Source: Afipia sp. GAS231 | GTDB lineage: Bacteria > Pseudomonadota > Alphaproteobacteria > Rhizobiales > Xanthobacteraceae | Length of the DNA: 64,000 bases | Direction: 5' to 3' | Assembly: GCF_900103365.1 (NCBI RefSeq) | Contig: NZ_LT629703.1 | Span: forward strand, 4,278,001-4,342,000 | Part shown: positions 56,280 to 59,200 of the stretch, in pieces | How the letters are laid out: every line of letters begins with the position of its first letter | Position numbering within the stretch: the first letter of the stretch is position 1 | The notes under the pieces: model-generated | What the model saw: only the letters and a program-made list of their open reading frames with translations | What the model was told of the DNA's origin: nothing | Databases searched by the model: none | Position numbers and translations under genes: made by a program

Positions 56280-58145
56280 TTAATTTGTTGTCACATTCTT
56301 TAACATCCGCTCCAGCGTCTCCAGCCGGTCGGCCTCACGTGGCGGTTTGTCCCAGCGCAGCCGGTTGATACGCGGAAACCGCATCGCGACCCCGGATTTG
56401 TGCCGTGGCGAGCGGGCGAGCCCCTCAAAAGCCACTTCCAGCACCAGGCCCTGGTCCGGCTCGTGCACGACATGGCGGACCGGGCCGAATTTTTCGGTGG
56501 TGTTGCGGCGGACGAAACGGTCGATCTGCAGCAGTTCCTCGTCGGTGAAGCCGAAATAGGCCTTGCCGACCGGCACCAGTTCGTTGCCATCGGTCCAGAC
56601 GCCAAACGTGTAGTCCGAATAATAGGACGAGCGCTTGCCGTGGCCGCGCTGCGCATACATCAGCACGGCGTCGATCAGATGCGGGTCGCGCTTCCACTTC
56701 CACCACTGGCCCTTGGGACGGCCCGGCAGATAGAGCGCGTCGCGGCGCTTCAGCATCACGCCCTCGACGGCCTCGGCGTCCTCGTCCGCACCGGCGCTGG
56801 CGGGATCGGCACGTGCCGCCGTCAGCGCGTCCCAACTGTCGAACGCGACCGTCGGCGAGAGATCAATACGCGGGTCGTCGAGTTTTTTGATGAACGCTTC
56901 CAGCCGGGCGCGACGCTCGACAAACGGCAGTTCGCGCAGATCGGATTCATCGTCGGCCAGCAAGTCGTAAGCGCGCAGATGGATCGGATACTCTTTCATC
57001 AGCTTGGGCGAAACGATTTTGCGATTGAGGCGCTGCTGCAGCACGTTAAACGTCTGCACACGACCGTCGCGCAGCACCAACAGCTCGCCGTCAATGGCGC
57101 CCGGTAGATGTAGCGACGGCGTCAGGTCCGGAAAGCTCGTGGTGATGTCCTCGCCGGTTCGCGAATAGAGCCGCGCCTGCATGTGGCCGCGCGCGTCGCG
57201 GCCCGCGACCGCCTGGACGCGAATGCCGTCCCATTTCCATTCGGCGATGAAGTCCGCCGGATCGAGATTGGCGAAATCCGAATCCTCGATCGCATGCGCC
57301 AGCATCACCGGACGGAACGGCGTCGGATCGCGATTGACCGGCTTGTCGGCCTTGCCTTCCAGCCAGGCGAAGAGGTCGAGATAGGGCGGGGTCAGTCCCG
57401 GCCACATCAGTTCGACCTCGTGCGGGTCTTTGTTCCCGAGCGCCGCCGCCGCGGTTTTCGCCAGCCGCGCCGAAACCCCGATCCGCATCGCGCCGGTGAC
57501 GAGTTTTAGCAGCGCCCAGCGGCCGGTCTCGTCGAGCTCATCGAGCCAGCGCGCGAGCTGTTTCGGCAGTTCGGTCTTGCCGAGCGTGCGCAGGGTGGTG
57601 ACGACCTCGGTGAGGGTGGGGGGAGGCGGGTTGTTGTGGCGTGGGCCGTGGCCATCATGAGCATCGGACTCGCGGTACCCCCCTCCCTGGCCTCGAGAGC
57701 GAGCTTCGCTCGCCTCGGACCCCGCAAGGGGGGAGGGAACGGTTAGAATTGTGGTCGTGGCTTTGGATGTGGATCGAGCTGACAGCCCAGCATTCCGCTC
57801 GGCTCCCTCCCCCCTTGCGGGGGAGGGTTGGGGAGAGGGGTAGCCCAGCAAAGACTCGCTGCGATCAACCGCCGCCTTCGGCCACATCAACGCGACCGTC
57901 TCCGAGAGGTCGCCGACGTAATCATACGACAGCCCGAACAACACCGGATCGGTGCGATCCGTGATCAGGTCACGGATCAGCCCGGCCTTGGCGTGTTTGA
58001 ACGACAGTGCGCCGGTCAGCGCCGCCAGCGCGTAGCCGCGATCGGGATCGGCGGTCTCGCGAAAATATCCCGTGATCAGCCGCAGCTTGTTGTTGCGGCC
58101 GGGCTCGTAGGCGAGGCGGTCCAGCAGTTCGGCGAAACGATTCAT
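56280..58145 (-). CDS. ATP-dependent DNA ligase (ligase-associated repair set) with in-frame repeat insertion
   Basis: A 621-residue ATP-dependent ligase. The nucleotidyl Lys is Lys304 in EWKWDGIRV, followed by YSRTGEDITTSFPDL, DGELLV and the C-terminal OB fold (VEGVMLKRRDALYLPGRPKG, WWKWKRDPHLIDAVLMYAQ). The N-terminal domain is interrupted at about residues 99-160 by a palindromic repeat read in frame (PSPQPSPARGEGA...), a low-complexity tail absent from typical ligases. The gene overlaps the exonuclease gene by four bases. The insertion probably forms an exposed loop. Confidence 0.92.
   Translation of the reverse strand: MNRFAELLDRLAYEPGRNNKLRLITGYFRETADPDRGYALAALTGALSFKHAKAGLIRDLITDRTDPVLFGLSYDYVGDLSETVALMWPKAAVDRSESLLGYPSPQPSPARGEGAERNAGLSARSTSKATTTILTVPSPLAGSEASEARSRGQGGGYRESDAHDGHGPRHNNPPPPTLTEVVTTLRTLGKTELPKQLARWLDELDETGRWALLKLVTGAMRIGVSARLAKTAAAALGNKDPHEVELMWPGLTPPYLDLFAWLEGKADKPVNRDPTPFRPVMLAHAIEDSDFANLDPADFIAEWKWDGIRVQAVAGRDARGHMQARLYSRTGEDITTSFPDLTPSLHLPGAIDGELLVLRDGRVQTFNVLQQRLNRKIVSPKLMKEYPIHLRAYDLLADDESDLRELPFVERRARLEAFIKKLDDPRIDLSPTVAFDSWDALTAARADPASAGADEDAEAVEGVMLKRRDALYLPGRPKGQWWKWKRDPHLIDAVLMYAQRGHGKRSSYYSDYTFGVWTDGNELVPVGKAYFGFTDEELLQIDRFVRRNTTEKFGPVRHVVHEPDQGLVLEVAFEGLARSPRHKSGVAMRFPRINRLRWDKPPREADRLETLERMLKNVTTN
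57666..57851. repeat. Palindromic repeat family C inside the ligase gene
   Basis: CCTCCCTGGCCT and CGCAAGGGGGGAGGG-type arms form a nested palindrome ending at about 57841. The insertion keeps the reading frame (about 62 codons) and lies between the N-terminal helical parts of the ligase. Confidence 0.82.
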
Positions 58146-59200
58146 GCGTCGGTCTCGCAGGCGGCCTCGTCGGGCGCGGCCGTTTCGTGCTCATCCTCAT
58201 CGCCATAGCCGACCAGCGCAAGCGGCCGCGCCGCGAGGCCGCGTGTCTGGCACCAATGCACCAGCGCGTCTTCCTGCCCATGCGTGACCCAGATCTCGCC
58301 GGCGCCGGTGGCTGCGATGGTCGCGGTCAGCCCGTCCCAGTCGGCGTGGTCGGAAATCACCAACGGCAATTCGACGCCGCGCTGCCGGGCGCGCGCCCGC
58401 ACCCGCATCCAGCCCGAGGCAAACGCCGTCACCGGGTCGGGAAACCGTCTGGTCCAGATGTCTGATGTGGCCGATGGCGGCGCCAGTGTGATGGTGCCGG
58501 CAAGATCGGCCTTCTTCATGCCCTTGACCGGACGCAACTCACCGAGTGCGACACCCCGGCTCTGATAGTAGGACGTGATCGCCTCCATCGCGCCATGCAG
58601 ATAGATCGGCGCGTCGTAGCCGGCCAAACGCAGCAGCGCGATCACGCGTTGCGCCTTGCCGAGCGAATAGGCGCCGACCAGATGCGCACGCTCCGGAAAC
58701 AGCGCCACCGACGCCAGCAGCTTCTTCACCTCATCCGCCGCGTTGCGATGGCGGAACACCGGCAAACCAAAGGTGGCTTCGGTGATGAAGACGTCGCACG
58801 GTACCACCTCGAACGGCGTGCAGGTCGGATCGGGCGCGTCCTTGTAGTCGCCGGACGCGACGATGCAGGTGTCCTTGCAGGACACGGCGATTTGTGCCGA
58901 GCCCAGCACATGGCCGGCCGGGTGAAATTTGATCGTGACGTCGCCGAGCCGCAGTTCCTCGCCGTAAGCAATCGCCTGCGTGGAGCGCGCGAAATTGTCG
59001 CCATAGCGCAGCCGCATCATGTCGAGCGTCTCTTGCGTCGCCAGCACCGCGCCATGGCCCGATCGGGCGTGGTCGGAATGGCCGTGGGTAATGACGGCGC
59101 GCTCGACGGGGCGAACCGGGTCGATATGGAAGCCGCCCGGCTTGCAGCACAGGCCGGCGGGAGCTGGCAGCAGGATGTCTTGTGGACGCATGTACGGCAT
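58142..59200 (-). CDS. Ligase-associated MBL-fold DNA exonuclease
   Basis: A 352-residue metallo-beta-lactamase-fold nuclease of the beta-CASP type. Metal motif HxHxDH is HGHSDHARSGHG (His39, His41, Asp43, His44), followed by HPAGHVLGSAQIAV, VASGDYKDAPDPT and VISDHADWDGLT. Homologues accompany ATP-dependent ligase and Lhr helicase as a DNA-damage response set. It overlaps the ligase start by four bases. The acidic C-terminal tail (DEDEHETAAPDEAACETDA) is variable. Confidence 0.9.
   Translation of the reverse strand: MPYMRPQDILLPAPAGLCCKPGGFHIDPVRPVERAVITHGHSDHARSGHGAVLATQETLDMMRLRYGDNFARSTQAIAYGEELRLGDVTIKFHPAGHVLGSAQIAVSCKDTCIVASGDYKDAPDPTCTPFEVVPCDVFITEATFGLPVFRHRNAADEVKKLLASVALFPERAHLVGAYSLGKAQRVIALLRLAGYDAPIYLHGAMEAITSYYQSRGVALGELRPVKGMKKADLAGTITLAPPSATSDIWTRRFPDPVTAFASGWMRVRARARQRGVELPLVISDHADWDGLTATIAATGAGEIWVTHGQEDALVHWCQTRGLAARPLALVGYGDEDEHETAAPDEAACETDA

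Follow-up and report, generated by a model that had tools for sequence, protein, structure and literature searches.

An old in-frame palindromic insertion at a recurrently filled loop of a bacterial DNA ligase

Intragenic palindromes in bacteria

Palindromic repeats read in frame within genes have been described in several bacteria. The accessible part of Di Nocera 2013 (PMC3733652) reports intragenic repetitive extragenic palindromes (REPs), many of which lie in genes for the synthesis and repair of DNA, such as DnaE2 and a DNA ligase of O. terrae; REPs lie at about the same site in two Xanthomonas recB genes, and the others in that gene category lie at different sites. The same sections present the Rickettsia palindromic elements (RPEs) RPE-4 and RPE-6, together with other REPs, as examples of one in-frame intragenic principle, and note that REP-associated tyrosine transposase (RAYT) elements can be missing, CGTC REPs apparently having none. 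The Bradyrhizobium palindromes Br-REP1 and Br-REP2 are placed, in the available sections of Hahn 2016 (PMC5082802), in intergenic regions and 3′ untranslated regions, not in genes. According to the accessible text of PMC5896051, QMITE1/2 of Coxiella, which are miniature inverted-repeat transposable elements (MITEs), are non-autonomous inverted-repeat elements sometimes found in frame in open reading frames (ORFs). Here, we describe a palindrome, called type A, that is read in frame inside an ATP-dependent DNA ligase of Afipia sp. GAS231 (assembly GCF_900103365.1), encoded in a window of 64,000 nucleotides (contig NZ_LT629703.1, positions 4,278,001 to 4,342,000). The insertion is real, in frame, and old, being common to many species rather than fresh, and it lies at a recurrent hotspot where palindromes of several types have settled.

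By principle rather than by sequence, type A can be likened to RPE-1, RPE-4, and RPE-6, which are also genome-dispersed palindromes in frame within genes (PMC3733652, same sections). The preliminary description of this DNA had drawn that parallel, and it holds: type A is dispersed, lies in frame in a conserved gene, and has empty orthologues. Unlike RPEs, the elements described here are G+C-rich, and several types occupy one loop over several genera. The GTAG/CGTC REPs share with type A a location inside repair genes (PMC3733652, as accessible), but they are palindromes of 20–40 bp, whereas type A measures ~160–235 nt, sits at a recurrent site, and resides in a genome in which the associated RAYT (PF01797) was not found. 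At the outer left end, 9 of 45 type-A rows carry GGCTACCC, which is GTAG on the other strand, and 24 carry GGCCACCC. Type A differs by eye from the Br-REPs in sequence. Like MITEs, it has terminal inverted repeats, seen as long inverted arms and, by eye, as roughly matching outer ends; unlike QMITE1/2, it has no established target-site duplication, and no parent transposase was found, PF01797 being the only transposase family sought. The principle of in-frame palindromes in repair genes is already known. Within the search terms used, we found no report of this recurrent multi-genus ligase site in the open-access literature, and what is new, as far as these searches go, is that several types reuse one loop over several genera, that palindromes are nested, and that conservation has been measured to differ between the DNA and protein levels.

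The type-A insertion in the ligase

The ligase matches TIGR04120 with an E-value of 1.7e-242 and 806 bits (cut-off 400), and its reading frame stays open over all 621 residues, palindrome segment included. Against empty orthologues, which carry about five residues at this point (e.g., WPK-AALAA-HNNPPPP), the filled segment amounts to 79 codons (Table 1). The preliminary description was right in proposing an in-frame palindromic repeat within the ligase, although its estimate of about 62 codons was too low. The segment is predicted to be disordered, the model giving a predicted local distance difference test (pLDDT) score below 50 over residues 93–170, and its flanks read ES(L/F)xGH and Y.GRD. 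Two inverted arms of 19 nt (57720–57738 and 57804–57822) are 100% complementary across a spacer of 65 nt. The palindrome stretch folds far more stably than its shuffles, both as DNA (z = -5.6; none of 200 shuffles equally stable) and as RNA (z = -6.0); in an Rfam scan, none of the nine weak matches listed reached the gathering score.

Type A is a dispersed repeat family, since the stretch 57666–57851 has at least 55 matches, itself counted, in the 7.58-Mb genome of GAS231, a lower bound with 40 of 59 candidates scored. The small hairpin nested in the downstream arm is present in four copies (at most two mismatches), the other three lying within type-A match clusters; its reversed control pattern had no match in this genome.

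Table 1. Features of the ligase locus, in window coordinates
Feature	Coordinates	Strand	Description	Basis
Filled segment	57639..57875	-	Residues 91-169, in place of ~5 residues of empty orthologues	Orthologue comparison
Palindrome A, upstream arm	57802..57845	-	Reads GYPSPQPSPARGEGA	Sequence; inverted repeat
Variable core	57743..57801	-	Between the palindrome A arms	Alignment of 45 type-A inserts
Palindrome A, downstream arm	57674..57742	-	Reads VPSPLAG...GQGGGY, nested hairpin included	Sequence; alignment; inverted repeat
Small nested hairpin	57695..57718	.	GAGAGCGAGCTTCGCTCGCCTCGG	Inside downstream arm
ATP-dependent DNA ligase, 'cisplatin damage response' type	56280..58145	-	Host gene, 621 aa	TIGR04120 + PF01068/PF04679
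Ligase-associated exonuclease	58142..59200	-	Adjoins ligase gene	TIGR04122

Filled and empty ligases across the family

We searched 117 genomes of the genus, for which the closest named records belong to Bradyrhizobium. Every genome gave a match, although that of G035 (best E 3.7e-5) is too weak for this ligase. Among 120 ligase loci examined, 111 had both flanks readable; the nine excluded are contig-end pieces or were not recognized by the script (L051, L053, L069, L074, L106, L108, L117, L118, and L120), and by eye, L106 has a type-C filling while L117, L118, and L120 start a type-A filling. When 'empty' is defined as at most 11 residues from W to H, the 111 ligases divide into 57 filled and 54 empty. 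The empty ones have contiguous flanking residues, as the preliminary description had anticipated for a clean insertion, and 46 of the 54 carry seven residues at the site. Filled ligases occur in B. retamae, B. australiense, B. macuxiense, and B. nitroreducens, with type C in B. pachyrhizi; B. yuanmingense and B. manausense are empty. No filled row has an in-frame stop (0/57), while the other two sense frames are interrupted in 20/57 and 56/57 rows. A separate 691-aa ligase record with an empty loop (P0002) contains an internal duplication of ~140 residues.

The fillings range from 28 to 112 residues and differ in sequence. The 56 filled rows of the tree set comprise 47 of type A (PSPQPSPARGEG...SPLAGEGQGGGY), four of type B (L044–L047; SPLPPRSGGEGSGVGG...PPTPDPSPP...), one of type C (L048; SPSPACGGGSGWG...PTSPASGRGEE), two A+B, one A+C, and one scar (L090). 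L047, labelled type B, also ends with the right half of A, and L055 and L067 have shrunk to about one hairpin. Types A, B, and C have different layouts, yet each pair, compared with one row per type, is locally similar beyond 200 of 200 shuffles; they are at least three distinguishable palindrome types that are not unrelated.

At the family level, matches at E 0.001 were obtained in 128 of 149 genomes, a part of them weak. Sixty-eight loci were examined; the script parsed 59, of which 55 lie outside the genus, and several of the nine unparsed ones (L133, L138, L139, L191, L195, L211, L216, L218, and L221) have fillers by eye. At least 25 codons occupy the site in 28 of the 55 ligases outside the genus. 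In 17 of these 28 long segments, the DNA inverted repeat is longer than in all 15 same-base shuffles; the 11 that fail this stem test may be decayed or unrelated. In Rhodopseudomonas and Afipia records, this loop is occupied by palindrome-like fillers that have other sequences.

Constraint on DNA and on protein

In 40 rows, the ratio of nonsynonymous to synonymous change (dN/dS) is 0.63 in the left flank, 0.80 in the core, and 0.81 in the right flank, versus 0.12–0.14 in the ligase body; the segment is close to neutral as protein. The arms, in turn, have very low synonymous divergence, with proportions of synonymous differences (pS) of 0.065 and 0.142 versus 0.38 (40 rows). At the one variable position compared, 31 of 35 rows show correspondence between the arms (G/C in 20, A/T in 11, mismatched in 4; Fisher p 9e-6, uncorrected), so two amino acids change together. 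Under a looser pattern, the arms correspond in 37 of 41 rows, and 9 of 50 type-A rows do not fit it. The arms seem to behave as a DNA palindrome, either by hairpin selection or by arm-to-arm copying. In the L034 insert, each arm carries an additional hairpin (TCCGCCGAAGCTTC...), the two being similar and placed in mirror positions, which suggests arm-to-arm copying.

Type-A copies elsewhere in the genome

The dispersed copies share an inner block of ~160 nt and further, partly conserved outer ends that resemble those of the ligase copy without being identical, and the mobile part thus extends beyond the coordinates given in the preliminary description; by eye, these ends roughly match each other as inverted ends, and the arms are long and inverted. 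The genome contains 41 type-A clusters, the ligase included. In it, 32 ORFs span a type-A cluster; 20 were scanned and 12 short ones left out, giving a Pfam match in four and none in 16, which were treated as spurious. Within this scope, only the copies in the ligase and in an ImuB-like polymerase were found inside a domain-supported protein body. Three further copies, N-terminal to the Pfam domains BPD_transp_2, CcmB, and NicO, may precede the actual start of the protein. The earlier proposal that this repeat family spreads into genes is supported by its dispersal and by the in-frame ligase copy, but concerns few cases.

An intergenic type-A copy at C1:5067579-5068349 (L153) has flanks that are almost contiguous in several relatives. 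The gap is 10 nt in G006 versus 274 nt here, which makes it an empty intergenic site in these relatives; a target-site duplication was not resolved. PF01797 (Y1/RAYT transposase) had no match in the GAS231 genome (the control matched in 5 of 14 genomes), and a Y1/RAYT mobilizer was set aside on this ground.

Loops of ImuB and DnaE2

The type-A copy of the ImuB-like polymerase (L149:1397-3316) lies in frame between LPRLPIDRI and VVxK, a site seen in L149 and L225–L254; in relatives, this loop holds assorted palindromes or is short. The 30 ImuB loci are the best-scoring from 60 genomes, and given this selection no correlation between ImuB and ligase states, which were compared by eye, is put forward. 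Of the 26 parsed, 17 have at least 48 codons at the site, 14 of them with a perfect stem of at least 9 nt, and nine have 12–36 codons; among the four unparsed loci, L225 and L239 are also filled. Part of the L253 ImuB loop and the C-terminus of the P0097 ligase contain another recurring coding repeat, AFSSEVDxGSREENASK.

In DnaE2, the loop from LKxxQxxF to DWA has 14–94 codons and stems of 7 to 22 nt in all 20 fetched loci (L375–L394), which are not a random sample. Here, in-frame repeats precede DWADRIVAAR. By eye, some rows resemble Br-REP1, reading ESRDS/EPRDS as its consensus would (PMC5082802, available sections), and others resemble other palindromes. The ImuB and DnaE2 sites differ in sequence from the ligase site.

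The survey of loops covered these three proteins, all of them DNA-damage proteins, and the type-A copies of the GAS231 genome. Within that scope, it is a tentative and rather doubtful idea that the damage-response genes of this family are preferred landing loops for many kinds of palindromic DNA, the same few disordered loops being refilled repeatedly. If true, repair proteins would carry lineage-specific linkers derived from selfish hairpins; hairpin processing or stress-induced synthesis would possibly ease targeting, or the linkers would be useful under damage.

Origin of the insertion and competing explanations

In 11 of 60 genomes, we found the motif that marks the left junction in the ligase; it occurs a single time in each of them and always within the ligase interval. 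Among 45 type-A inserts, insert distances track gene distances (Mantel rho 0.75, and 0.53 within a large clade of 24). Because the junction motif was found only in the ligase and insert distances follow gene distances, the data point to a single old insertion of type A. The uniform empty form resembles that of other genera and is unlike real deletion scars, from which we infer that homologous recombination has carried old alleles, filled and empty, from one species to another.

The explanation that we consider probable combines one old type-A insertion in a tolerant loop, later reuse of that loop by other types, and a disordered by-product peptide. A selfish type-A palindrome would have entered the ligase once, long ago, in the loop between two helices of the DNA-binding domain. 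This loop would tolerate nearly any in-frame, stop-free filler, and selection would therefore have purged only frame-breaking copies. In related species and genera, this loop would later have been taken up by other palindrome types; we infer their separate insertion, with transposition as the mechanism. The peptide would be a disordered by-product, its arms evolving as a DNA palindrome and not as protein. We consider the segment most likely to be selfish DNA that is tolerated and has been filtered for frame; a functional domain is less likely.

Several observations weigh against parts of this explanation. With phylogenetic pairing, the coupling of the arms is not significant (five contrasts, 3.2 with and 0.1 against, p ~0.25). 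Filled and empty states require 34 changes on the ligase tree (109 rows; L116 and L119 left out as short), against a mean of 36.4 (range 28–45) in 300 label shuffles, and 30 changes on the tree of the adjoining exonuclease, against a mean of 36.4 (range 26–44, with 7 of 300 shuffles as low); the two states have almost no phylogenetic signal. A recombination tract around the site, sought among all pairs, among close pairs, and by per-site association, was not demonstrated, and no linkage peak appeared. Nearest neighbors share their state in 56 of 109 rows by distant sites and in 68 of 109 by near sites. Although L014/L070 looked suggestive as a pair (p 0.0008), it does not stand out, since same-state pairs cluster equally strongly. 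Judged from their local similarity, types A, B, and C may share a mobilizer and some site preference, and the fact that such sites recur in three damage-response proteins might point to a function.

Site-directed insertion, in which the target DNA of the loop attracts palindromes, perhaps through one mobilizer for several related types, would account for several types in one loop over several genera and for the similarity of A, B, and C beyond shuffles. We regard it as unlikely: junctions vary between types and rows (WPK followed by SSPLPP, WPRAA by SSPLPP, and WPSPFHART by SPLPP), sequences differ at the sites in ImuB and DnaE2, and the genome is without the Y1 transposase family. Domestication, with a proline- and glycine-rich linker kept for use, e.g., to tune how the ligase, ImuB, and DnaE2 bind DNA or contact their partners, draws on the similar filler in three DNA-damage proteins and on the persistence of the filled type-A allele across the group. 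Near-neutral dN/dS in flanks and core, the variable length and sequence of the fillings, predicted disorder, and the 54 of 111 orthologues that do without the segment make it quite improbable.

A third alternative concerns the empty alleles, which could reflect many separate losses of the insert in the absence of any allele exchange among species. Partial deletions in L055, L067, and L090 show that the insert can shrink, but the observed deletions retain flank residues, whereas the empty alleles share one short form (seven residues in 46 of 54), with similar short forms in other genera; repeated loss is accordingly a poor candidate. G+C-rich proline and glycine codons are common in genomes of this kind, but an origin of the segment as low-complexity coding sequence, convergent or ordinary and without relation to the repeat, is refuted by the at least 55 genomic matches, beside the perfect inverted arms and the folding z of -5.6.

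Significance

An old type-A insertion in a reused loop provides a many-species natural experiment on selfish DNA turning into protein. In a single loop, palindromes have been gained, nested, and collapsed or are absent, the reading frame acting as a visible filter, and conservation at the DNA level, in the arms, can be separated from near-neutrality at the protein level. The finding also sharpens the 2013 observation that intragenic palindromes are often in repair genes, to specific loops in three proteins.
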